Below, piece after piece: positions 24,485 through 37,418 of a DNA stretch of 64,000 nt (its first letter is position 1; every line of letters starts with the position of its first letter). The notes beneath the pieces were generated by a model, which saw nothing but the letters and a program-made list of their open reading frames with translations, was not told the origin of the DNA and searched no databases. The stretch lies in the NCBI RefSeq assembly GCF_023638035.1, contig NZ_JAKRVX010000001.1:682001-746000 (forward strand), given 5' to 3'. The position numbers and the translations under genes were made by a program. The stretch comes from Natronocalculus amylovorans (lineage in GTDB: Archaea > Halobacteriota > Halobacteria > Halobacteriales > Haloferacaceae).

Positions 24485-24919
24485 ATGCAAATTCGTGACG
24501 CGGTCGAAGCTGATGCGGAGGCGATCGCGGCAATGAGTGATGCACCTGTTGACGTGGTTCGTAATCTTGTACACGATCGAACAGTCCGGGTTGCTGCAGC
24601 AGATAACTCACGGGCGGCCGATCCGAATGTTGACGCTGGGGGTGCAGGAGCGTCGCTTTTGGGCTTCGTTAGTTTTGATGCAGCGGAGTCAACAGTGCAT
24701 GTCACCCAGTTTGGTGGCCAGCGTGAGGCCTGTATTGAGCTCCTTGAAGAGCCAGTTCGATTCGCAACCGCTGAAGGGATGACTGTTGAGTTACTCGTTG
24801 AGGCTGGAAACGACGAGCGGAGCACCGTTGCCACGGACGCAGGATTCACAAAAGTTGGCGCTGGCCCACAATTTAACAATGCGGGGACGGTTCGATATCG
24901 GCTCGAGCCAGAGGGTTAG
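24485..24919 (+). CDS. GNAT-like acetyltransferase
   Basis: A 144-residue protein that starts as a GNAT domain (MQIRDAVEADAEAIAAMSDA) and ends ERSTVATDAGFTKVGAGPQF, like the family's terminal helix-strand. The middle is short and the classic Q/RxxGxG/A loop is degenerate (GGQREACIELLEEP), so catalysis is uncertain. It overlaps the DP1 gene by 4 bases tail to tail. ATG 24485 gives the proper first strand. Confidence 0.75.
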   Translation: MQIRDAVEADAEAIAAMSDAPVDVVRNLVHDRTVRVAAADNSRAADPNVDAGGAGASLLGFVSFDAAESTVHVTQFGGQREACIELLEEPVRFATAEGMTVELLVEAGNDERSTVATDAGFTKVGAGPQFNNAGTVRYRLEPEG

Positions 24920-26520
24920 ACGAATTTTCGTACGGTCATATTCAGCGTATCGAGATCGACGATCGGCGCATACCCCGAGTCAGGGTTAATATTGACGCTC
25001 TTTTGGAAATCAGTTTGTGCTTGCCAACAGCCGCTGTTTACCGCAAGCACATTGTGATATTTTCCCCAACCAATTTTGTGAACATGGCCGGTATGGAAAA
25101 TATCCGGAACGTTGTCGATAACAAGATAATCCTGTGTTTCGGGTGCAAGCCGATTTCGGCCACCGTACTGTGGCGCAACGTGGCGTTTTTTCAAAAGGTG
25201 GTACATCGCTTTGTGGGACTCGTCGTAGCTTGCTTTCTCCTCGGGAAGTTCGGCAATCACTTCATCCAGTGAGACGCCATGATACATGAGCACAGAGACG
25301 TTTTCGATCGTCACCGTCGCTGGGTTGCTCACAATGCGCGCGTCGTGTATATCCATGATGTCTCGGAGCCTATCGTCGAATCCTGGCTGTGGTTCCGCAA
25401 GCCGGACTGCATCGTGGTTGCCGGGGATCATCACGATCTCCATATCGCCCGGGACTTCTTTCAGATACTCCGCAAACATTTCGTACTGGTCATAGATGTC
25501 AATGATGTCAAGTTCTTTATCTTGATTTGGATAGACACCAACACCCTCGACCATATCTCCTGCGATAAGCAGATACTCAACATGTTGTGCTTCTTCGCTA
25601 TGGAGCCAGTCCGTGAACTGATGCCATGCCTCAGCCATGAACTCCTGACTACCGACGTGGATATCCGAGATGAGTGCGGCTTGGACGTGACGATCGGCGG
25701 TACTTGGTCGGTGCGTCCGCGGAACGTCCGGAAAGTGAAGCGAGTCAACAAACATAATTCCCGCATCATCAGAGAGCCGCCCTTGGACGGCAATACACTC
25801 GTCCATAAGGAGTTCGTTTACAAGCTCTGAGATGTTTTTGTCTTTGGTGACAAGACACGGAAATGTCCCTGTTGTGTCCTCAAGTTCGATCAACCAATGA
25901 CCGCCTTTCGTCGATCGAACATCGTTCACCAACCCGATGAGTTCAGCTTCACTCCCACCAGGCATCTTCGAGATTGCCTTCGTCGGCCGGTGATTGACAC
26001 GGCTACGGAGCAGTTTTGAGAGCCGTTCGTACCGATCGCGAAACGTCCGAACAAACTGTTTGTACTCGCCTGTCCCCGTACTTTGTCCGGTCATATCGTT
26101 TGCGATCGACAGCGATCGTAAGGAGATATCCGATGCTCTTCGATTGCCGCTTGTATCGATCTCTTCAGCATCATCAACAGCACTGGAATCCGTTGGGTCA
26201 TCTCTCTTAGGCTGTTTGCTAGTAACCCCCTCGGTTTCAACTGGAGAATCGGCATCAGTTGCCTGGTTGGACTCGGTATTTTGAGCTTCTACTGGCGGCT
26301 CTTGTGGAGGGTCCTCAATAGGTGCACTGTCAATGACAGCACGGACATCTGTAACCGTAATTCGGAGTGTCTCTTCGCTTATATTCTCAAGCACGGCTCC
26401 GATGGCTTCTGGAGGGTCTGGAGCTCTTGCGAGGAGTGTTACTGCTTCCCGTTCAGCGTTGTATCCATGACGGGCAAGTGATTGCACAACGCTCGCTGGA
26501 GTCTCCGATGGCACACCCAT
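24916..26520 (-). CDS. polB: DNA polymerase D small subunit (DP1)
   Basis: A 534-residue archaeal DP1. An N-terminal domain (1-70) is joined by a long acidic low-complexity linker (about 70-150) to an OB fold (about 185-265). The Mre11-like phosphoesterase domain (about 275-534) has its metal ligands intact: SDIHVGS, AGDMVEGVG, PGNHDAV and TGHVHKIGWG. It is the 3'-5' proofreading subunit of PolD; the large subunit is elsewhere. The linker (residues 92-99) is encoded over an ORB-like sequence at 26225-26246. Confidence 0.95.
   Translation of the reverse strand: MGVPSETPASVVQSLARHGYNAEREAVTLLARAPDPPEAIGAVLENISEETLRITVTDVRAVIDSAPIEDPPQEPPVEAQNTESNQATDADSPVETEGVTSKQPKRDDPTDSSAVDDAEEIDTSGNRRASDISLRSLSIANDMTGQSTGTGEYKQFVRTFRDRYERLSKLLRSRVNHRPTKAISKMPGGSEAELIGLVNDVRSTKGGHWLIELEDTTGTFPCLVTKDKNISELVNELLMDECIAVQGRLSDDAGIMFVDSLHFPDVPRTHRPSTADRHVQAALISDIHVGSQEFMAEAWHQFTDWLHSEEAQHVEYLLIAGDMVEGVGVYPNQDKELDIIDIYDQYEMFAEYLKEVPGDMEIVMIPGNHDAVRLAEPQPGFDDRLRDIMDIHDARIVSNPATVTIENVSVLMYHGVSLDEVIAELPEEKASYDESHKAMYHLLKKRHVAPQYGGRNRLAPETQDYLVIDNVPDIFHTGHVHKIGWGKYHNVLAVNSGCWQAQTDFQKSVNINPDSGYAPIVDLDTLNMTVRKFV
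26225..26246 (-). repeat. ORB-like element inside the DP1 gene
   Basis: The sequence reads ACCCC-CTCGGTTTC-AACTGGAG on the plus strand, close to the origin elements at 27588 and 29816, with one extra C and one extra G. It points the same way as all ORBs left of the AT-rich core. It encodes part of the disordered DP1 linker, where coding constraint is weak. I cannot tell whether it is bound by Orc1. Confidence 0.55.
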
Positions 26521-27587: not shown

Positions 27588-27608
27588 ACCCCTTCGTTTC
27601 AACTGGAG
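27588..27608 (-). repeat. Origin recognition box (ORB)
   Basis: ACCCCTTCGTTTC followed by AACTGGAG lies 5 bases after the sec11 stop and 58 bases beyond the orc1 stop. It is almost identical to the ORB at 29816-29837 and in the same orientation. It is the only notable element in the short gap between the convergent genes. Confidence 0.75.
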
Positions 27609-27665
27609 AATATGCAGTATTGTCTTTTCGACTGTGGTTTCTATACACGAATGTGTATGATAGTA

Positions 27666-29315
27666 TCAGTTATCGAATCGGGCTTGGACAAATGGTTGGA
27701 CGGTTTCAATGTCTCCGAGCCGTGAGTCTGAGAGCAAAACTGCTTCGGTCTCATCAATCGGGACAGAGAGGCTGATCTCTTTTGTTCGGCCATAGCGACC
27801 TTTTGAAACAACAACAGCGTTGACGATTCCGAGCATATCCAGTTCGGAGATGAGGTCAGTTACACGGCGCTGAGTGAGCACATCTGCCTCTAGCTCATTG
27901 CAGATCCGTTTGTAGATATTGAATACTTCCCCAGTGTTGACATTGTGGACTCCGTTCTTTTCAAGCAGAATAATTGAGAAGAGGACAATCTTTGATTGGG
28001 TCGGAAGTGTTCGAACAACCTCCACAACTCGATCGAGTTCGATTTTGTCCTGTGCTTGTCGAACATGCGCCTCAGTAACCGTATCGGCTTGTCCACGCTC
28101 AGCGAGCTCGCCCGCGGTCCGAAGTAGGTCAAGTGCTCGACGTGCATCACCGTGTTCCTGTGCGGCAAATGCAGCACATAGAGGGATTACGTCTGACGTG
28201 AGGGCATCGTTTTTAAACGCAACATCCGCACGGTGTTGAAGAATATCGCGAAGTTGGGTAGCGTCGTATGGTGGAAACACGATTTCTTCTTCACCAAGTG
28301 ACGATTTGACACGCGGATCGAGGAAGTCCGTGAACTTGAGGTCGTTTGAGATCCCCATAATCGAGATTCGCGAGTTTTTGAGTTCAGAGTTCATTCGTGA
28401 TAGATTATAGAGCGTATCATCCCCTGATTTTTCAACGAGTTTGTCGATCTCATCAAGCATGATCACAACAACCCGTTCGCTATAATCGACTGCTTCAAAA
28501 AACGTTGTATAGACCCGATCGGTCGGCCATCCTGTCATCGGAACGGGCTCCATCTCTGCGGTATCAGATTCGAGTTCTTCGATCCGTGACTCAATCCCAG
28601 AAACGGTCGTAAACTGGGTCTCAGAAAGCGAAGTTTCGACGTCTATGTCAGTCTCGGTTACTTGTTCAATAAGCGACTTGAGTTCGGAAAGCCGGTTGTC
28701 GATCGCGTTTTTATTTTTTTCAATAAATTTGTTCGCCAGTTGCGCAAGCACGCGGTACTGTGTGTCAGTAACTTCACAATTGATATACTGGACTTCGCAT
28801 GGAACATCATACTTCTGTGACGTTGACTCGAGTTCCTGACTTACAAATTTTGCACTCGCGGTTTTTCCGGTTCCAGTTTTTCCGTAAATGAGAATGTTTG
28901 ATGGAGTTTCTCCACGCAGTGCTGAGACGAGGATCGTCGCCATCTGATTGATCTGATCTGTACGATGTGGTAGCTCGTGTGGCGTATATGATGGTCGAAG
29001 AACCTCTTTATTCTCGAAGATTGGCTCTCCAGCGAGCAGATCATCAAACAGTCCTTTATTTTCGTTTTCACCCTCGTTGAGCACATTATCAAAGTCGAAC
29101 CGTGGGGAAGACCGATCGCGTCCTGTCTCTGCAGCGTCGATTTCGACAGTTTGGTTGTTGCCTTCGCGATCGGTCTTCTTGTTACGAGAGTCACTCACAA
29201 CCCCTTTGTTTCGAGTGGAGTTCGACCGGTTTTGATCCTCAGCTGGGTCTTCGTCAGTCGATGAGTCGGTTGGTGGTGAATTATTCTTCGTAGTGTTGTC
29301 GGTGGTTTCGTCCAT
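27666..29315 (-). CDS. orc1: Orc1/Cdc6 origin initiator
   Basis: A 549-residue AAA+ initiator. It has an acidic, probably disordered N-terminus (about 1-75), Walker A YGKTGTGKT (about 144-152), Walker B VVVIMLDEIDKL (about 282-293), sensor 1 MGISNDLKF and sensor 2 HGDARRALDLL. The C-terminal winged helix covers about 440-549. A Glu-rich insertion (about 205-255) is visible between Walker A and B. It binds ORBs and recruits MCM. It reads away from the intergenic origin, which together with oapABC identifies it as the oriC1-associated paralogue. The start codon lies 3 bases from an ORB-like element. Confidence 0.95.
   Translation of the reverse strand: MDETTDNTTKNNSPPTDSSTDEDPAEDQNRSNSTRNKGVVSDSRNKKTDREGNNQTVEIDAAETGRDRSSPRFDFDNVLNEGENENKGLFDDLLAGEPIFENKEVLRPSYTPHELPHRTDQINQMATILVSALRGETPSNILIYGKTGTGKTASAKFVSQELESTSQKYDVPCEVQYINCEVTDTQYRVLAQLANKFIEKNKNAIDNRLSELKSLIEQVTETDIDVETSLSETQFTTVSGIESRIEELESDTAEMEPVPMTGWPTDRVYTTFFEAVDYSERVVVIMLDEIDKLVEKSGDDTLYNLSRMNSELKNSRISIMGISNDLKFTDFLDPRVKSSLGEEEIVFPPYDATQLRDILQHRADVAFKNDALTSDVIPLCAAFAAQEHGDARRALDLLRTAGELAERGQADTVTEAHVRQAQDKIELDRVVEVVRTLPTQSKIVLFSIILLEKNGVHNVNTGEVFNIYKRICNELEADVLTQRRVTDLISELDMLGIVNAVVVSKGRYGRTKEISLSVPIDETEAVLLSDSRLGDIETVQPFVQARFDN
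29200..29223 (-). repeat. ORB within the orc1 coding region
   Basis: ACCCCTTTGTTTC followed by GAGTGGAGTTC matches the core ORBs well. It encodes Orc1 residues about 32-39 (NSTRNKGV) in the disordered N-terminal extension. Its orientation matches the other left-side elements. Confidence 0.7.
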
Positions 29316-29318
29316 AGT

Positions 29319-29339
29319 ACCCCCTCATTTCATGTGGAG
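29319..29339 (-). repeat. ORB-like element between the orc1 promoter and start
   Basis: ACCCCCTCATTTC followed by ATGTGGAG starts 3 bases upstream of the orc1 ATG. A TATA box on the orc1 strand (TTTATACTGG, 29351-29361) lies just outside it, so transcription would start within or beside the element. It is weaker than the core ORBs (TGTGG instead of ACTGG). Confidence 0.65.
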
Positions 29340-29815
29340 CAACCCAACAACCAGTATAAAACACGCGATAGAGGTGCGTGGGGCGTGGATTCGGAGATAG
29401 ATGTGAGTGTGGGTTGTCCAACTGATGCACTCGAAGCAGACGAAGAGGACCTACAAAAGTGTTATTTATTAACGATGACAAGCACGTTGAGATGGAGATA
29501 CAGTTGGTTCTTACTCTATCAGTATTGCTGACATGTTTAATGTAAATTTCTATCTTTCAGATTGTGATCATCTTTCTCCGGGTAGTTGTAGACCGTTTGC
29601 ATGCCATCCTAGTATTGAAAATATCGTGAGTATTTTGACCTAATTTCAGCTGGTGTCAAATCGTAATTGGTCTCAGTTGGTGTTAGGATCGATATTCTCG
29701 ATAGTAAAGTATGAATTACAATGTACATACTCCACGGAATATCATTTGTACCGATTTGTCGTGGAATCGGTATACTACTGTCCTGTTAATGCTACCCACG
29801 GTGGACTAGCCCCCC

Positions 29816-29837
29816 ACCCCTTTGTTTCTACTGGAAC
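29816..29837 (-). repeat. Core ORB, left arm of oriC1
   Basis: ACCCCTTTGTTTC followed by TACTGGAAC, with CCCCCC immediately to its left (29810-29815). Read on the minus strand this is GTTCCAGTA-GAAACAAAGGGGT plus a G-run, the haloarchaeal ORB with its G-string. It is inverted relative to the element at 30034 and flanks the AT-rich core. Confidence 0.9.
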
Positions 29838-29929
29838 TGTCCGAGAGAGGGTACTCAATTTCGGCCGATAGCATCTGATAACCAACGGTTTTATATCTAA
29901 GTCTATCGAACAGTACCCTCGGTACTCGA

Positions 29930-29993
29930 AGAGACTTTATTTCACTATCAGTTATATTATTTTATTAGAGGTCGTGAATGAATAATAACACAA
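29930..29993. other. Probable DNA unwinding element
   Basis: The most AT-dense part of the origin lies between the inverted core ORBs, for example TTATATTATTTTATTAG and AATGAATAATAACA. Its position and composition fit the duplex unwinding element of haloarchaeal origins. The borders are approximate and were set by eye. Confidence 0.65.
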
Positions 29994-30033
29994 CCACCGT
30001 TTCAGCTCAATCAAGGGGTTACCCCTTCGTTGG

Positions 30034-30061
30034 GTTCCACCCGAAACAAAGGGGTGGGGGG
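30034..30061 (+). repeat. Core ORB, right arm of oriC1
   Basis: GTTCCACCCGAAAC followed by AAAGGGGTGGGGGG is a full ORB with its G-string, pointing right. A truncated, opposite-facing copy (ACCCCTTCGTT at 30021-30031) overlaps its left side, giving a dense local cluster. Confidence 0.9.
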
Positions 30062-30295
30062 TGGAGACTGTGATTTAATCACCATTTAGGTATATTATCT
30101 GTCCCCGACGTTTTAACCGCTCACAAGCACAATTACTGCATGACATTATCTACCGCCCTTGTCGTCAACCGGTAAGCTTGGGTTAAAATGAACTCTGTCT
30201 GACGTAGTACTTAAGTGTGCACGGATTGGAAGATAGTTTCATACACCCCTCCAGTACCAGATCGATTGGGACGATGGGAGGCGTGGGAGGTTAGG

Positions 30296-30937
30296 ATGGG
30301 TCTACTTACGAATCTCAAAGACAGCATTTCGAAGGTCACTGATCGGCTCTTCTCCGATAGCGAGCCAAAACGTATTGGAATCTATGGACCACCAAACGCC
30401 GGCAAAACAACGCTGGCAAATCGTATCGCGATCGACTGGGCTGGCGATACTGTGGGTCCTGAGAGTCATATTCCACACGAGACACGGCGCGCACGAAGGA
30501 AAGAGAATGTAACAATCGAACGGAATAGCCAAACCGTCACAATTGATGTCGTCGACACACCTGGTGTCACAACCAAGGTTGACTACAAAGAGTTCCTCGA
30601 TCACGACATGGAGAAAGAGGACGCAGTTCGGCGATCGCGCGAGGCAACAGAAGGTGTTGCAGAAGCGATGCACTGGCTTCGTGAAGATGTTGATGGTGTT
30701 ATATACGTGCTTGACTCAACAGCAGATCCGTTCACACAAGTCAACACGATGTTGATCGGCATTATAGAGAGCCGCGAACTCCCGGTTCTCATTTTTGCCA
30801 ATAAAACGGATCTTGAGGGATCAAACGTCCAACGGGTCGCAAATGCGTTCCCACAGCATGAGACCGTTCCGCTCTCTGCACTTGAAGGAAACAACATGGA
30901 CGAGGTATATGACAAAATTGCGGAGTACTTTGGATAG
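30296..30937 (+). CDS. oapA: Origin-associated Era/Der-like GTPase OapA
   Basis: A 213-residue GTPase with G1 GPPNAGKTTL (about 27-36), G3 DVVDTPG, G4 NKTD and G5-like SALEGN. A helical, charged segment lies between G3 and G4. ATG 30296 is preceded by GGGAGG and chosen over a GTG 81 bases upstream. It is the first of three tightly spaced genes right of the origin, matching the oapABC cluster described beside haloarchaeal oriC1. Its role is not defined; an origin-linked or membrane function is possible. Confidence 0.88.
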   Translation: MGLLTNLKDSISKVTDRLFSDSEPKRIGIYGPPNAGKTTLANRIAIDWAGDTVGPESHIPHETRRARRKENVTIERNSQTVTIDVVDTPGVTTKVDYKEFLDHDMEKEDAVRRSREATEGVAEAMHWLREDVDGVIYVLDSTADPFTQVNTMLIGIIESRELPVLIFANKTDLEGSNVQRVANAFPQHETVPLSALEGNNMDEVYDKIAEYFG

Positions 30938-30941
30938 GATC

Positions 30942-31328
30942 ATGCCGGAAGCAACACCAACAAACGAAGACGGGGTCAGGATTGACCTGATAAGCGGTGC
31001 CAGAATGGACGGGTTGGCAAGTATGGAAAAAATTAGACTCATTCTCGACAGCGTTCGAGAGGGAAAAATTGTTATTCTTGAAGCCGGGCTGTCACCGGAT
31101 GAAGAGTCACGGCTTATTGAAGTCACAATGTCCGAGATCAACCCAGACGGATTCAGCGGGATTGAAATCGAGACATATCCAAGTACACAGGCCGCAAATC
31201 AGAGTTTCCTCGATCGCCTCATGGGCCGACAATCAACGAAGAAGCTCACAGTGATCGGACCAGCAAATCAGATTGAAACACTTCATAAAGATGAGACGCT
31301 CATTAGCGCGCTCGTTTCACACAAATAG
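30942..31328 (+). CDS. oapB: Origin-associated protein OapB (DUF2073)
   Basis: A 128-residue protein, 4 bases after oapA. It contains the conserved core IDLISGARMDGLASMEKIRL, a strand KIVILEAGL and the C-terminal TVIGPANQIETLHKDETLIS, consistent with DUF2073. ATG 30942 is the first start after the oapA stop. The biochemical function is unknown; constant linkage to oapA and the origin is the main clue. Confidence 0.85.
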   Translation: MPEATPTNEDGVRIDLISGARMDGLASMEKIRLILDSVREGKIVILEAGLSPDEESRLIEVTMSEINPDGFSGIEIETYPSTQAANQSFLDRLMGRQSTKKLTVIGPANQIETLHKDETLISALVSHK

Positions 31329-31337
31329 TCACTACCG

Positions 31338-32165
31338 ATGCCACACCAGTGCACTAACTGCGGTCTGACGTTCCCTGATGGTTCAAAAGAGATGCTTTCC
31401 GGGTGTCCAGACTGCGGTGGAAACAAGTTTCAGTTCCACCCTGGAAGCGTTGATCGAGTCGAAAAACAGACGACAGAGACTGTGAACGAAAACCCGGCAA
31501 CACAGCGAACGCAGAATCCAGACCAACAACAGCCGTCGACAACGCAAAATCCAGACCAACAACAGCCGTCGACTGAACAGCCTCTACAGAGCTCCAGCGA
31601 AGCGACACAAAACAACACTAAGTCTGGATACACACCATGGCCATCACAGCGGAACACTGATGCTACGGACTCGACACCGTCACAGGCTCCAGATTCACCA
31701 CCCACAGATTCTCCGAAACAGAACCAACCACCGAGTAAGACGCGTCAACAATCAACAGATTCTGACCCTGTGAGTGACAAACCGATCGATGCGGTCACGA
31801 ATGATGCAGTTGTTGAACGATCGGATACACAGACAGAACTGGAAGCAGCCGAAACACCAGCCGAAGAGGACTCCGCGCAAGTTAGTGCTCGGACGGATGT
31901 CGTTTCAAACGAGGAACTTGCAGCCGCGCGTACCCAATCAGACACGACGGAATCGCAACCGGACGAGCCGTCACCGGATCTAGAACAACTTCGCAATGAA
32001 CTCAACGAACAGTTCGAGAGCATCAAGATTCTCAATCCTGGCCAGTACGAAATTAATCTCATGGAACTGTACGATCGTGATGAGTACATTATATCGCTGC
32101 GAGAAGACGGCAGATACGTTATTGAAGTCCCAGATGGCTGGGGAATTAGCGATACTGACGAATAA
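31338..32165 (+). CDS. oapC: Origin-associated zinc-ribbon protein OapC
   Basis: A 275-residue protein. The N-terminal zinc ribbon has two Cys pairs (HQCTNCGL and SGCPDCGG). A very long Gln/Ser/Thr/Glu-rich disordered linker (about 40-210) follows. A conserved C-terminal module (about 215-272, FESIKILNPGQYEINLMELY then YVIEVPDGWG) closes it. Nine bases separate it from oapB. The linker contains a perfect-frame 11-residue tandem duplication. The architecture suggests a tethered protein- or DNA-binding adaptor; that is inference. Confidence 0.85.
   Translation: MPHQCTNCGLTFPDGSKEMLSGCPDCGGNKFQFHPGSVDRVEKQTTETVNENPATQRTQNPDQQQPSTTQNPDQQQPSTEQPLQSSSEATQNNTKSGYTPWPSQRNTDATDSTPSQAPDSPPTDSPKQNQPPSKTRQQSTDSDPVSDKPIDAVTNDAVVERSDTQTELEAAETPAEEDSAQVSARTDVVSNEELAAARTQSDTTESQPDEPSPDLEQLRNELNEQFESIKILNPGQYEINLMELYDRDEYIISLREDGRYVIEVPDGWGISDTDE
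31510..31575 (+). repeat. Tandem 33-base repeat within oapC
   Basis: Two adjacent 33-base units (31510-31542 and 31543-31575) differ at about three positions and encode two copies of the QNPDQQQPST motif. Being in frame and in the disordered linker, it probably arose by slippage. Confidence 0.85.
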
Positions 32166-32193
32166 TATATAAGCGATATATACGGTACTGTAA

Positions 32194-32245
32194 CATCCAG
32201 TTGAATTCCTGTTATTCATACATACCATCTAGTTAAATTTCTGTT
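32194..32245 (+). repeat. Imperfect direct repeat after oapC
   Basis: Two 20-base copies, CATCCAGTTGAATTCCTGTT (32194) and CATCTAGTTAAATTTCTGTT (32226), are 32 bases apart. They lie just before the ORB at 32256, which begins with a similar TCCACTGGAA core. They may be decayed ORB half sites. Confidence 0.4.
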
Positions 32246-32255
32246 TTGAATCGAT

Positions 32256-32276
32256 CTCCACTGGAAACAAAGGGGT
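32256..32276 (+). repeat. ORB downstream of oapC
   Basis: CTCCACTGGAAAC followed by AAAGGGGT is a near-consensus ORB pointing right, in the 260-base gap between oapC and aspartate kinase. It is the right-side counterpart of the element at 27588, at a similar distance from the core. Confidence 0.8.
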
Positions 32277-32378
32277 ATGAACAAAGTTCACAACCAACGA
32301 TAATTCAGCGGAATTGTTGAATCGGCAACGGTTGGAGAAGTGAACAACGTTATGCAGTTGCCCGCGTTACGATGGCGC

Positions 32379-32435
32379 ATGACTGAGTTCACTGTCGGAT
32401 ACAGCAAACAGGTGGAGGAATGTTCATGCGAGTAG
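32379..32435 (+). CDS. Possible 18-residue leader ORF overlapping aspartate kinase
   Basis: ATG 32379 opens a frame of 18 codons (MTEFTVGYSKQVEECSCE) that ends at TAG 32433-32435, overlapping the start of the kinase gene (ATG 32426) in another frame. A TATA-like tract GTTATGCA lies about 27 bases upstream, so the mRNA could be leaderless at this ATG. The kinase has its own GGAGG at 32414-32418. It may be a coupling or regulatory leader; it may also be chance. Confidence 0.3.
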   Translation: MTEFTVGYSKQVEECSCE

Positions 32436-33604
32436 TTGCAAAGTTTGGAGGTACGAGCCTTGGAAGCGGTGACCGAATTAACCGTGCCGCAGACTCGATT
32501 GCAAAAGCGGTCGACGCAGGCCACGAGATTGCTGTTGTTGCGAGTGCAATGGGATCGACAACGGACGATTTACTCGACGAAATCCAGTTTGAAGCGGCCG
32601 ACGCGGATCGGGCGGAGATTGTTTCAATGGGTGAGCGAACGAGCGTTCGGATGTTAAAAGCAGCACTTACCGCTCGTGGTGTTAACGCACGATTCCTAGA
32701 GCCAGGAACCAAAGAATGGCCAATCATTACCAATGATCTCGGTGAGGTCGATGTTGAGGCAACCGTTGCTCGTGCCGAAGAGCTTGCATCCGAACTTGAC
32801 AATGTTGTGCCGGTAATCACAGGCTTCCTTGCACAAAATCACGATGGAGAGATAACTACACTGGGCCGTGGCGGCTCAGACACCACTGCTGTGATGCTTG
32901 GGAAGTACATGAACGCGGATGAGGTCGTTATTGTGACCGACGTTGAGGGAGTTATGACTGGTGATCCTCGTGTCGTCGAGGGTGCACGAAATGTTGGTCA
33001 GATCACGGTAGACGAACTCCGAAATCTTTCTTTCCGTGGTGCAGAGGTTGTCGCACCGAGCGCGCTCTCGTATAAATCGGGTGATATGGGAGTTCGCGTT
33101 GTTCATTATCAACACGGTGATCTACTTACTGGTGGGACTCGAATTGAAGGGCAGTTCGAGAATCTTATCGACATGCGCGAAACTCCACTTGCATGTCTGA
33201 CTGTTGCGGGACGTGCGATGCGGAACCGGCCGGGAATCCTCGCAGAGCTTTCGACTGCACTTCGAGGATCAGACATTAACGTTGACTGTGTTGCAAGCGG
33301 AATGGACTCGATTACCTTCTACGTTGATGCAGAGGAATCAGAGGAAGCGGAGGCAGTTCTTCATGAAGAGGTTGTTGCAGATGAAACACTTTCGAGCATC
33401 ACTGTTGATGATGGTGTTGCAGTCATCCGCGTAACTGGTGGGGAACTGCCGAACCGACCTGGTGTTGTCCGTGATATTCTTACACCGATCGCCGATGCAG
33501 GAATCAACCTCCACGATGTTATCACGAGTGCAACATCTGTTGCGCTGTTTGTCGACTGGGAGGACAGAGAAGACATCCTCGAAATCGTCCAATCCGAGTT
33601 CTGA
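32426..33604 (+). CDS. lysC: Aspartate kinase
   Basis: A 392-residue amino-acid kinase with VAKFGGTSLG at the N-terminus, the substrate loop MGERTSVRML, GFLAQNHDGEITTLGRGGSD and the nucleotide-binding VIVTDVEGVMTGDP. Two C-terminal ACT domains follow (about 265-392). It phosphorylates aspartate as the first step to lysine, methionine and threonine. ATG 32426 sits 7 bases after GGAGG; the ATG at 32420 would be too close to it. Feedback control through the ACT domains is expected from the family. Confidence 0.93.
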   Translation: MRVVAKFGGTSLGSGDRINRAADSIAKAVDAGHEIAVVASAMGSTTDDLLDEIQFEAADADRAEIVSMGERTSVRMLKAALTARGVNARFLEPGTKEWPIITNDLGEVDVEATVARAEELASELDNVVPVITGFLAQNHDGEITTLGRGGSDTTAVMLGKYMNADEVVIVTDVEGVMTGDPRVVEGARNVGQITVDELRNLSFRGAEVVAPSALSYKSGDMGVRVVHYQHGDLLTGGTRIEGQFENLIDMRETPLACLTVAGRAMRNRPGILAELSTALRGSDINVDCVASGMDSITFYVDAEESEEAEAVLHEEVVADETLSSITVDDGVAVIRVTGGELPNRPGVVRDILTPIADAGINLHDVITSATSVALFVDWEDREDILEIVQSEF

Positions 33605-33765
33605 CAGCGGTCGTTGTACAGGTTTAGACGGTGGCGATGATAACTATACATCGTACATTCTTTTTATCCGCCAGATCACGATTTTTGTACTTTTAGCGTC
33701 CGTCCGCACAGTATTCTCCATACACCGTCGCTGAATATTTTCACAGTTTGGCTCATTATTCTTTT

Positions 33766-35154
33766 ATGAACTCATCTCCCGATCGAGGTCGTCAAACGGT
33801 CCGATCGTACAAGGCAAAAGCAGTTGAACCAATCTCACTCCTCGCAAAACCGGATCGAGAGAGTGCACTCGAAACCGCGGGCTACAACGTGTTCAATCTT
33901 CAGTCGAAAGACGTCTACATGGATCTGCTTACTGACAGCGGCACCGGTACCATGAGCGATCGCCAATGGGCAGCACTGCAACAGGGTGACGAGTCGTACG
34001 CTGGCAGCCGAAGTTTTCAGCGACTTCAAAAGAGCGTCCAAGATGTCATGGGATTCGAACATGTCGTTCCGACACATCAAGGGCGTGGTGCGGAGAACGT
34101 CCTCTACGGTGTACTTGTTTCTGAGGGTGAGACCGTTCTCAATAATACACATTTTGACACCACACGTGCACATATTGCGGCACAAGGTGCGGACCCAGTT
34201 GATTGTCCACTCACCACCTCAGCCTCTACTCGGTTTAATGGTGATATGGATCTCGATCGTGCCCGAAACACAGTCGATAAAATCGGTCATGAGTTGGTCC
34301 CAGTCATCGTCCTCACCATTACAAACAACTCCATGGCTGGGCAGCCGGTGAGCATCCAAAATACCCGCGACGTTGCAGCGTTTGCAGCGGAGATTAATGC
34401 AACATTTGTGATTGACGCCTGTCGGTTTGCTGAGAATGCAGCGTTCGTCAAACGACACGAAGATGAGTTTACCGACGCAACCGTTGCTGAAATCGCTCGC
34501 GAACAGCTCTCGTATGCTGATGCAATCACCATGAGCGGGAAAAAAGATGCATTAGCAAACATCGGCGGCTTTGCTGCAATGAACGATCGGACACTCTTTG
34601 AGCGTGCAAAACAGCGAGCAACCTTGTACGAAGGATTTCCAACATATGGTGGCTTGGCAGGACGGGATCTGCATGCAATGGCAGTTGGCCTCAGAGAAGC
34701 AGTAACCAGTGAGTACGTGTTCGATCGGATCGATCAGGTTGCAGAGCTTGGGGGGCTTCTTCGTAACGCCGGCCTTCCGGTGTATGAGCCGTTTGGTGGT
34801 CATGCGGTGTACGCAAATGCAAACGAACTGTATCACCACATTCCACGATCGGAGTTTCCTGGTCAACGATTAGTTTGTGAACTGTACCGAGAGGGTGGTG
34901 TCCGAACCGTTGAACTCGGACAGTTCGCATTCCCGGGCACCGATCGACCGGACTTCGTTCGATTCGCACTCCCTCGCCGAACCTATTTCCGCGAGCATCT
35001 CGAACACGTTGCTCAAACTGCACGTCGAGTTATTTCGGCTGCAGACAGCACTGTTGGACTCACAGTTACAGAGACACCGGGAATGCCCGAGCTCAGACAC
35101 TTTTCGGCACGACTTGAGCCTGTTTCGAATGCGGTTGAATCAACTGCTGACTAG
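33766..35154 (+). CDS. tnaA: Tryptophanase / beta-eliminating PLP lyase
   Basis: A 462-residue fold-type I PLP enzyme. It has the family opening YKAKAVEPISLL, the NLQSKDVYMDLLTDSGTG block, GDESYAGSRSF, PTHQGRGAENVL and the PLP lysine in TMSGKKDALANIGG. The closest families are tryptophanase and tyrosine phenol-lyase; both release pyruvate and ammonia from an aromatic amino acid. I prefer tryptophanase but cannot exclude the lyase. ATG 33766 is chosen. It is flanked by unrelated genes. Confidence 0.88.
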   Translation: MNSSPDRGRQTVRSYKAKAVEPISLLAKPDRESALETAGYNVFNLQSKDVYMDLLTDSGTGTMSDRQWAALQQGDESYAGSRSFQRLQKSVQDVMGFEHVVPTHQGRGAENVLYGVLVSEGETVLNNTHFDTTRAHIAAQGADPVDCPLTTSASTRFNGDMDLDRARNTVDKIGHELVPVIVLTITNNSMAGQPVSIQNTRDVAAFAAEINATFVIDACRFAENAAFVKRHEDEFTDATVAEIAREQLSYADAITMSGKKDALANIGGFAAMNDRTLFERAKQRATLYEGFPTYGGLAGRDLHAMAVGLREAVTSEYVFDRIDQVAELGGLLRNAGLPVYEPFGGHAVYANANELYHHIPRSEFPGQRLVCELYREGGVRTVELGQFAFPGTDRPDFVRFALPRRTYFREHLEHVAQTARRVISAADSTVGLTVTETPGMPELRHFSARLEPVSNAVESTAD

Positions 35155-35177
35155 CCACCGATACACCGATCGTACAG

Positions 35178-35843
35178 CTACTGCCCCGCAGAAAGGCGAT
35201 CAGCAAGCGACGCTGGCAACCCGACCGCTTGTATCTCTGCAGCCACGGTTTCAATATCGTACGGAACACGATGTAGCTCAACAGCAAGCGTCTCTGTATC
35301 AACCACGGCATATGCTGCCCGTGGGTCGCGATCGCGTGGCTGCCCAACACTGCCTGGATTAAGAATTACTCCTCCGTCAACACGCTCCATTGCTTGCTTG
35401 TGTGTATGGCCCATAATTAGTATGGATGCCTCCGCTCGCTCCAATAGCTGTGAGGTAAATTGGTGTGGATAGACGTACCGATCGGGGTCAGACGGATGTC
35501 CGTGAACCACCAGTACATCACCATCTGTAAGCCGCTGCTCTGTCGGAAGCGACCGGAGCCATTCGACCTCGTCAGGCTGAAGCTGCTTTGTTGTGTACTC
35601 AATTCCAGCTCTCGCGCTTCCTGTAAAATTGAACGGCGTCTCAGCCGTGGCTGCTCGATCGTGGTTGCCTGCGATCGTCACATCACTGTTGTCTCGTACC
35701 CACCGGACGCACGTACTCGGCCACGGATTATATCCAACAATATCTCCTGCACAGACAAGCCGATCGATCGAAGGGAGATCATCATGAACCGCCTTGAGCG
35801 CTGGCCAGTTGCTGTGAATATCTGAGAGGACACCAAGCCGCAT
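35178..35843 (-). CDS. Calcineurin-like phosphoesterase (YfcE/MJ0936-like)
   Basis: A 221-residue metallophosphoesterase: LGVLSDIHSNWPAL, CAGDIVGYNPWP, IAGNHDRAAT, VVHGHPSD and ILIMGHTHKQAM provide all metal ligands. The pattern NPGSVGQPRDRDPRAAYAV is typical of this subgroup. ATG 35843 (MRLGVLSDIH) fits the first strand; the frame extends to 35864. It is a paralogue of the gene at 48257-49006. Substrate unknown (cyclic nucleotide or other phosphodiester). Confidence 0.9.
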   Translation of the reverse strand: MRLGVLSDIHSNWPALKAVHDDLPSIDRLVCAGDIVGYNPWPSTCVRWVRDNSDVTIAGNHDRAATAETPFNFTGSARAGIEYTTKQLQPDEVEWLRSLPTEQRLTDGDVLVVHGHPSDPDRYVYPHQFTSQLLERAEASILIMGHTHKQAMERVDGGVILNPGSVGQPRDRDPRAAYAVVDTETLAVELHRVPYDIETVAAEIQAVGLPASLADRLSAGQ

Positions 35844-35925
35844 GCTCACTAGCTGTTGTCTCAACCCACTTAAAAAATAGTCTCAGTGCTGACTCAAAAA
35901 CGATAGTCTCAGCGCTTGCTCGACC

Positions 35926-36519
35926 TTATTGCCCGTTTTCAATCGCAACAGAGACGCCTTCTTGAGTCACTGTTACACCCGCTGCACAGACTGCGTGCTC
36001 AAACGTGGCGTCATACAATTCCATTGCAACGCCGCTTGCGTCCGTTGCATCCAAGGTATACTTCGACGGTGTGTTGCGCTCGTATGTCGCAACAAGTGTT
36101 GGCTCTGTAACCGTTTCAACGTGTAGTGCATCGTGTCGAACTGTTGCAATCACTGCCGAATCTTCATACACAACGCCAGCGATTCGGGGCGTATTGTAGT
36201 CGTCCTTCTCGAAATCGAGCGCAAGCAGACTCAGCGCCAGTGCATCACGCGCTGGATACCCGAGTTCGATTTTTTCTGCGATCGGATCTACATGCGAGCC
36301 GTTTCCAACAACCGCAACCGTTGTTTGCTCTGACGGTGACGTGACTGTTCGCACACAGTTGTAGGACACGTATGGGTTGTCAGTCTCGGGCGCATCCGGT
36401 GTTGGACCAACGGTTACCCTCCCATTGCGATCAATAATCTGTCGGTTGGGAAACGATCGCGACGATACTCGATAGCCACCGATGCCTGGACCAACAACAA
36501 CAAACCGTCCAATGTACAT
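35926..36519 (-). CDS. purO: IMP cyclohydrolase, archaeal type
   Basis: A 197-residue PurO with the family start [20 protein letters not shown] and [20 protein letters not shown], then [10 protein letters not shown] and [20 protein letters not shown]. It closes FAICAR to IMP in the last step of purine synthesis, replacing PurH cyclohydrolase in archaea. It is a single gene. The 203-base gap upstream, up to the tRNA, is AT-rich and shows no gene. Confidence 0.92.
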
Positions 36520-36722
36520 GGGCGATGGTTTGATGCATGAATAGTAGTATCTACCGATCTAAAAAACGAATTGTAGACATAAACTTGTACAAATTTATCT
36601 ATTCCAACGGTACTCTTGAGCTAAACAAGGTATACAAACTGTTAGTGTAAAGAGCGCTATACACCACCAAGACGCAGTGGAAACGACAACGTTTAGTTAT
36701 CGAGTACCGTCACTGAAAATGA

Positions 36723-36795
36723 AGTCCCATGGGGTAGAGGCCAATCCTGTTGCCTTCTGGGGGCAACGACCGCGGTTCGAATCCGTGTGGGACTA
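36723..36795 (+). tRNA. tRNA-Gln, anticodon CUG
   Basis: A 73-base cloverleaf. Acceptor AGTCCCA (36723-36729) pairs with TGGGACT (36788-36794), with discriminator A at 36795. The D-arm starts GGGGTAGAGGCC. Anticodon stem TTGCC (36750-36754) pairs with GGCAA (36762-36766), with loop TTCTGGG and anticodon CTG at 36757-36759. The T-arm is CGCGG-TTCGAAT-CCGTG. CCA is not encoded. The sequence closely follows known haloarchaeal tRNA-Gln. A TATA-like TTTAGTTATC lies about 25 bases upstream. The 3' end overlaps the stop codon of the opposite gene by 3 bases. Confidence 0.95.
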
Positions 36796-37323
36796 TTCGT
36801 TTACTCTTTCAGACTCACTCTCTTCAGACCGATCGGTCTCGGTTGCTGCAGCCGAAATATCGTAAATAACCCGTTCAAGCTCCTGTTTGCGGCGCTTTTT
36901 TGCCAATCGATCGATCACCGGAGCAAACAGCCCACCAAACGTGTACTCCGAGTGAATAACGACAATCGTTGAGTCACCGTTCTCGATCGCCTCAATCTCC
37001 GCGAGCTCATCTGGGCCATGTGCGGCTGCGTATAAGGAATCATGCGTTTCGTGTAGCGTTATCGTCGTCTCTACCGTTTCAAACGGACCATCTGCCTCCG
37101 TCGCTTGGCGGTACTCATATCCATCGGGCCGCATTTTAACAATAACAACAAAATCGGTGTCGATCACTGGTGAAGATGCGGTTACTCGCCATCCATCTGT
37201 GTCTTCGACAACAGTGTCGACATCATATGTCCCACCAAACTCAATAACCGATCGGGGTGAAAGAACGTCTGCGACTCGGTCATACGAAGCAGGTACCGAC
37301 CCGGAGACTGTTACTTCGAGCAT
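36793..37323 (-). CDS. SRPBCC (START/Bet v1-like) domain protein
   Basis: A 176-residue single-domain protein beginning LEVTVSGSVPASYDRVADVL, with central strands GWRVTASSPVIDTDFVVIVK and DSTIVVIHSEYTFGGLFAPV, then a C-terminal helix KKRRKQELERVIYDI and an acidic tail. This is the polyketide-cyclase/SRPBCC pattern of a ligand-binding cavity. The ligand is unknown. Its TAG stop lies within the last three bases of tRNA-Gln on the other strand. Confidence 0.82.
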   Translation of the reverse strand: MLEVTVSGSVPASYDRVADVLSPRSVIEFGGTYDVDTVVEDTDGWRVTASSPVIDTDFVVIVKMRPDGYEYRQATEADGPFETVETTITLHETHDSLYAAAHGPDELAEIEAIENGDSTIVVIHSEYTFGGLFAPVIDRLAKKRRKQELERVIYDISAAATETDRSEESESERVNE

Positions 37324-37397
37324 GTGCTAATTGTATGGGCTCACGTACAATAATGAGTGTGTCACAGAACTGTCTCTTATTCCTGACTATCACAAAA

Positions 37398-37418
37398 CTC
37401 CATACGAAACAAAGGGGT
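37398..37418 (+). repeat. Distal ORB-like element
   Basis: CTCCATACGAAAC followed by AAAGGGGT lies in the 129-base gap between the SRPBCC and cgi121 genes, 7.4 kb right of the core. The GAAACAAAGGGGT half is perfect while the CACTGG part is altered. It points right like all right-side elements. Confidence 0.6.

Follow-up and report, generated by a model that had tools for sequence, protein, structure and literature searches.

Bacterial initiator boxes occur both at the gene of the initiator itself and away from the origin, with DnaA boxes present in the dnaA promoter and at datA, where datA soaks up DnaA. Haloarchaea are polyploid and have many origins, and the oriC1 ORBs of Haloferax, Haloarcula and Halobacterium share the same 21-bp core next to orc1-1. 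Surveys of ORBs have defined them in the intergenic regions beside orc/cdc6 genes (PMC3528665, PMC4595724), and at oriC2D of Haloarcula hispanica an intergenic cluster of 11 boxes has been described, for which titration of Cdc6E was proposed (PMC3936714). In Sulfolobus, Orc1-2 is reported to act as a transcription regulator of the DNA-damage response (PMC9738581), and the G-string of ORBs has been tied to stable binding by the AAA+ domain at opened origins (reviewed in PMC7776575). A literature search covering mainly open-access main texts returned no paper on intragenic ORBs for archaeal Orc1, and conserved, putative initiator sites of the kind described here are missed by searches restricted to intergenic DNA.

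Here, we describe an ORB within the coding sequence of orc1 in a window of 64,000 nucleotides from Natronocalculus amylovorans (the whole stretch of DNA that was analysed), together with related boxes in other haloarchaea (Table 1). The core pair of the window, at 29816 and 30035, is a standard oriC1 with G-string. The box at 29200 matches the ORB core common to haloarchaeal oriC1 boxes; unlike these, it sits in orc1 coding sequence, outside the inverted pair that surrounds the AT-rich unwinding region, and it has no extended G-string, its flank reading CACA where 29816 and 30035 have C-runs. As with the DnaA boxes and datA, sites occur both at the gene of the initiator and outside the origin, a likeness that is analogous and not homologous, DnaA belonging to another protein family and the boxes here lying within orc1 and DP1 codons. 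The likeness to oriC2D is in having extra ORBs near an orc/cdc6 gene and outside the origin, there proposed to limit the initiator (PMC3936714); unlike that cluster, the boxes here are single or paired and occur within coding sequences or next to the orc1 start codon. Sulfolobus Orc1-2 provides a case of an Orc1/Cdc6-family protein acting on transcription (PMC9738581), albeit as a non-initiator orthologue, unlike the oriC1 initiator and intragenic sites considered here.

Table 1. Coordinates of the genes, boxes and comparison loci discussed in the text (window positions unless loci or genomes are named)
Feature	Position or locus	Strand	Remarks
PolD small subunit gene (DP1)	24916..26520	-	OB fold from residue ~194, phosphoesterase 282-482
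Degenerate ORB in DP1, residues 92-99 (SPVETEGV)	26226..26246	+	18.3 bits; counterpart of relatives' conserved DP1 ORB
ORB in gap between sec11 stop and orc1 stop	27588..27608	+	33 bits
orc1/cdc6 initiator gene, 549 aa	27666..29315	-	Pfam domains: AAA+ from residue ~114, Cdc6_C 432-524
Intragenic ORB, orc1 residues 32-39 (NSTRNKGV)	29200..29220	+	35.0 bits, without extended G-string
Start-adjacent ORB, 3 nt gap to orc1 ATG	29319..29339	+	24.4 bits
TATA-like TTTTATA, upstream of start-adjacent ORB	29355..29361	-	predicted, sequence alone
Left core ORB of oriC1	29816..29836	+	C-run (G-string) on flank
Right core ORB of oriC1	30035..30055	-	C-run (G-string) on flank
ORB in gap between oapC and aspartate kinase gene	32256..32276	-	
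ORB in short intergenic gap right of origin	37398..37418	-	
Copies of 13-mer ACCCCTTTGTTTC	29200, 29816, 30043-, 32264-, 37406-		exact match, 3.26 Mb genome
DP1 convergent ORB pair, example loci	L191, L232, L024, L264, L270, L271		
Natrialbaceae orc1-internal ORB, loci	L039, L040, L041, L043, L045, L035		
Natrialbaceae orc1-internal ORB, genomes	G384, G339, G345, G400, G390, G343, G264, G282, G368, G191, G376		

The initial annotation had reported a near-consensus ORB encoding a short piece of the Orc1 N-terminus, and this is borne out. The + strand letters at 29200-29220, ACCCCTTTGTTTCGAGTGGAG, lie in frame over the codons AAC TCC ACT CGA AAC AAA GGG GTT (N32-S-T-R-N-K-G-V39), and the score of 35.0 bits is comparable with those of the window core ORBs (31 and 37 bits). 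To build the matrix, the top-scoring + site and the top-scoring - site above orc1 were taken from each of 152 haloarchaeal loci, giving 304 core oriC1 sites. The matrix yields 910 matches of at least 10 bits in the real loci versus 5 in 2.68 Mb simulated from these loci with a first-order Markov model, where zero matches reach 14 bits. The exact 13-mer ACCCCTTTGTTTC has five copies in the 3.26 Mb genome, all within the window, and ACCCCYYYGTTTCNNNTGGA is matched perfectly six times genome-wide, every time at window 27588-37418 (27588+, 29200+, 29816+, 30035-, 32256-, 37398-), the imperfect sites 29319+ and 26226+ completing the set. The annotation had also held that the orc1 codons look chosen to keep the box intact, with which the numbers agree: just 16 of the 18,432 synonymous encodings of residues 32-39 reach at least 35 bits, and the probability of such a score given the peptide, weighted by local codon usage, is 0.0010-0.0011. 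Codon choice at 29200 favours the ORB, with p~0.001 given the peptide amounting to moderate evidence.

The box codes for part of the N-terminal extension of Orc1, the Pfam domains starting at residue ~114. ATG 29315 is well supported as the orc1 start, and 29200 most likely lies within translated sequence and not upstream of a misannotated start, given the codon usage, the MDE-type start and the position of TTTTATA. The orc1 frame above the conserved core is open up to a stop ~10 nt upstream of this ATG, the first 39 codons match genome codon usage (log-odds 0.50 versus -0.13 and 0.18 in the other sense frames), and the protein begins MDETTDN.., an MDE-type start like that seen in many relatives. 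A GTG in the same frame, at 29196-29198, was judged unlikely to be the true start on the same three grounds, and no TATA-like element is in place upstream of it in the sequence; were it used, 29200 would be no more than a usual start-adjacent box.

Among the relatives, fetched as 120 loci of the same family plus others of the order, the conserved element is not the 29200 site; it is the ORB adjoining the orc1 start codon, which is present at 142 of 151 loci, reaching at least 16 bits in 138 and lying no more than 14 nt from the ATG in 137. The window thus has an initiator box at the initiator's own start, 29319, as in a dnaA-like autoregulatory operator, and this box is weaker (24.4 bits) than the relatives' median of 29. 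The A+T content of relatives peaks 20-24 nt upstream of the start-adjacent ORBs, the same distance at which TTTTATA stands in the window, and TATA-consensus matches upstream of these ORBs are not enriched (8 of 137 versus 8 of 137 in the reverse-complement control); judged by the A+T peak alone, the start-adjacent ORB probably covers the orc1 transcription start. Over the 60 nt above the box, A+T peaks recur about every 10 bp in the 137 loci (-52, -42, -31, -22, -12), a periodicity possibly dominated by one genus.

A strong + ORB at the 29200-equivalent place in the N-terminal extension is found in the window alone among the 151 loci, and the box is therefore a recent or lineage-specific addition. 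In the Orc1-core tree the window stands beside genus g4 (L132, L135) and near Haloquadratum sp. LUM.47 (L022), and the site is absent from all three. In this extension, L023 has a + ORB of 21 bits and L193 and L185 have - ORBs of 33 and 25 bits; weak matches of 12-18 bits (L172, L176, L190, L206, L208) were not counted as sites. The initial annotation had proposed comparing synonymous sites among orc1 orthologues, a comparison for which the relatives offer no orthologous copy of the 29200 box. Its general idea of a dual-use sequence with constrained codons is strongly supported in DP1 of the same neighbourhood and in an insertion of Natrialbaceae orc1. In Natrialbaceae, a separate ORB occupies a variable orc1 insertion and is read as SPVETKGS and similar at six loci, with codon-choice p of 1e-5 to 5e-4; by coordinates it is also present in 11 of ~24 further genomes, and in all of these loci and genomes it lies on the strand opposite orc1. 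Its reading frame and type of peptide match those of the ORB in DP1.

In DP1, in-frame ORBs occur in the linker that precedes the OB fold in 105 of 119 genes, as a + box (PVET[EK]GS) in 99, a - box (DPSVSTGT) in 56 and both in 50, and the DP1 pair is also found in other haloarchaeal families. The two boxes form a convergent pair exactly 57 bp apart in 41 of the 50 genes with both, and since the surrounding linker differs in length between genes (box at codon 63-185), so constant a spacing suggests that geometry matters. A dual-coding ORB with constrained synonymous codons is strongly supported in DP1 of relatives. The + box has an observed median of 29 bits against a codon-shuffled null mean of -5.5, and codon-choice p is below 0.004 for all 155 in-frame DP1 ORBs (median 3e-5). 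In a synonymous profile of 482 columns drawn from one genome per genus or taxon, the observed and expected frequencies of the ORB codons are 0.91 versus 0.12 for CCA, 1.00 versus 0.33 for GAA, 0.96 versus 0.08 for ACT, 0.96 versus 0.12 for GGA, 0.97 versus 0.24 for GGG, 0.96 versus 0.09 for GTT and 0.92 versus 0.06 for TCT. ORB columns make up 7 of the 11 most constrained of these 482, and the 13 ORB columns sum to 488.7, compared with a maximum of 218.6 over 20,000 random draws. C-terminal DP1 matches reading APETKD were left out as by-products of conserved protein. In the window itself, the DP1 box at 26226 is degenerate, at 18.3 bits, and its - partner was not found.

The flanks of the boxes differ, the extended G-string (a long C-run beside ACCCC) being present in 96-100% of core ORBs, in 0% of start-adjacent ORBs and in 4-10% of DP1 boxes. 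The boxes thus seem to fall into an initiating class and a gene-linked class without extended G-string, and since the latter miss the long G-string that core ORBs have, they look like predicted Orc1-binding sites that do not start replication. Genus g65 (G253, G364), in which orc1, oapA, DP1 and the inverted oriC1 pair are dispersed across 0.2-1.5 Mb, offers a natural experiment on which ORBs travel with their gene. The DP1 pair of G253, at 238011/238068, has orc1 194 kb away and the inverted core pair (1776722/1777039) at a distance of ~1.5 Mb, the DP1 pair of G364 is likewise away from the inverted pair, and in both genomes orc1, by coordinates, keeps an ORB near its start. The function of these ORBs seems to follow the gene and not the origin, given that those of orc1 and DP1 are kept here with the inverted pair elsewhere. 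Fetched DP1 genes at 12-55 kb from orc1 also retain at least one box of at least 17 bits.

Taking these observations together, we see about an even chance that 29200 is an Orc1-binding box written into orc1 codons, a member of the gene-linked class through which Orc1 feeds back on its own gene. We infer from the sequence both the binding of Orc1 at these sites and the feedback of its level on orc1; the most likely use of gene-linked ORBs would be feedback on the expression of Orc1 and PolD, or titration of Orc1. Under the feedback reading, Orc1 bound at the start-adjacent ORB 29319, expected to overlap the transcription start, would repress orc1, and the strong 29200 box, 119 bp further into the gene, would reinforce it, acting as a second operator or as a roadblock, a role that may owe to the weakness of the start-adjacent box in the lineage of the window. 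Orc1 would similarly act on DP1 via the pair in its linker, and 29200 would also enlarge the local stock of Orc1 sites around oriC1. Somewhat more tentative is the general proposal that Halobacteria have a second, gene-linked class of ORB without extended G-string, comprising boxes in orc1 codons, the convergent pair with 57-bp spacing in DP1 codons and the box next to the orc1 start, by which the initiator would control its own level and that of PolD independently of origin position. Such a class bears on how haloarchaea regulate the amount of their main initiator and its timing, and a predicted Orc1 box without G-string, fixed in the codons of a PolD subunit and recurring in orc1, is a directly testable switch.

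The main rival to feedback on orc1 and DP1 expression is titration, where 29200 would be one of ~8 origin-proximal ORBs soaking up Orc1 as a reservoir, its place in orc1 being incidental; this we consider possible, if on the whole doubtful. ORBs cluster near orc1 genome-wide, with 4-6 of at least 18 bits within -5/+4 kb of oriC1 in most genomes and 7 in the window, and an ORB-rich region is proposed to titrate Cdc6E in Haloarcula hispanica (PMC3936714). As unrelated genes nearby (ABC ATPase, Hef-like helicase) contain ORBs too, generic titration fits as well as gene control, yet it leaves unaccounted for both the tight spacing to the orc1 start codon and the fixed 57-bp DP1 pair, which persists throughout the class, including where DP1 has been relocated. 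An accessory role at the origin, with intragenic ORBs joining helicase loading and origin firing, is improbable. These boxes share the core of the initiating pair, and all eight boxes of the window point inwards, + to the left of the origin and - to the right, but they do not have the extended G-string of core ORBs, the DP1 boxes are kept even where the inverted pair is far off, and the polarity is not kept in relatives right of the origin (67 + versus 26 - beyond oapC), so that inward polarity, true in the window, was rejected as a general rule.

We give an equally slim chance to 29200 being a now neutral remnant, an old start-adjacent ORB engulfed as the translation start moved up to ATG 29315. 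In relatives with a short N-terminus, the start and its ORB lie just as far from the conserved core (165-210 / 178-219 nt), and the ORB upstream of the ATG reads STRNKGV in frame in some of them; a neutral relic, however, sits poorly with a box that is near-perfect and stronger than the present start-adjacent ORB, with the conserved MDE-type start at 29315 that has an ORB of its own, and with a GTG 29198 that has no TATA-like element in place. Least probable by some way is chance or pure protein constraint, with a conserved peptide motif producing the ORB likeness as a by-product. The encoded peptides are indeed similar (PVETKG, STRNKG), but it is rare codons that are fixed (CCA, GAA, GGG, GTT, ACT, GGA) as residues vary over the box (PVETEG, PVEMEG, PHETGG, PDETGG), and codon-shuffled genes almost never attain the ORB score.

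Further ORB-like sites were seen in other contexts. Natrialbaceae loci L272-L277 have one such site in common, CCCCTTCGTTTCGCATGGA, flanked by an nmd3-like gene and an M48 protease gene; where orc1 is on the same contig, the distance to it is ~100-170 kb. A conserved Natrialbaceae box reading GCATGGA, which lies between these two genes, was considered as an ORB over another gene's start and rejected, no gene start being consistently at the site. Within genes in the vicinity of oriC1 whose names were judged by eye, ORBs occur in the C-terminal part of an ABC-transporter ATPase at oapC +3.7 to +6.3 kb (L164, L171, L153, L162), in a Hef-like helicase gene of Haloferax at oapC +1992 (L236), and in an acetylglutamate-kinase-like N-terminus that has several copies of the encoded peptide (L151).
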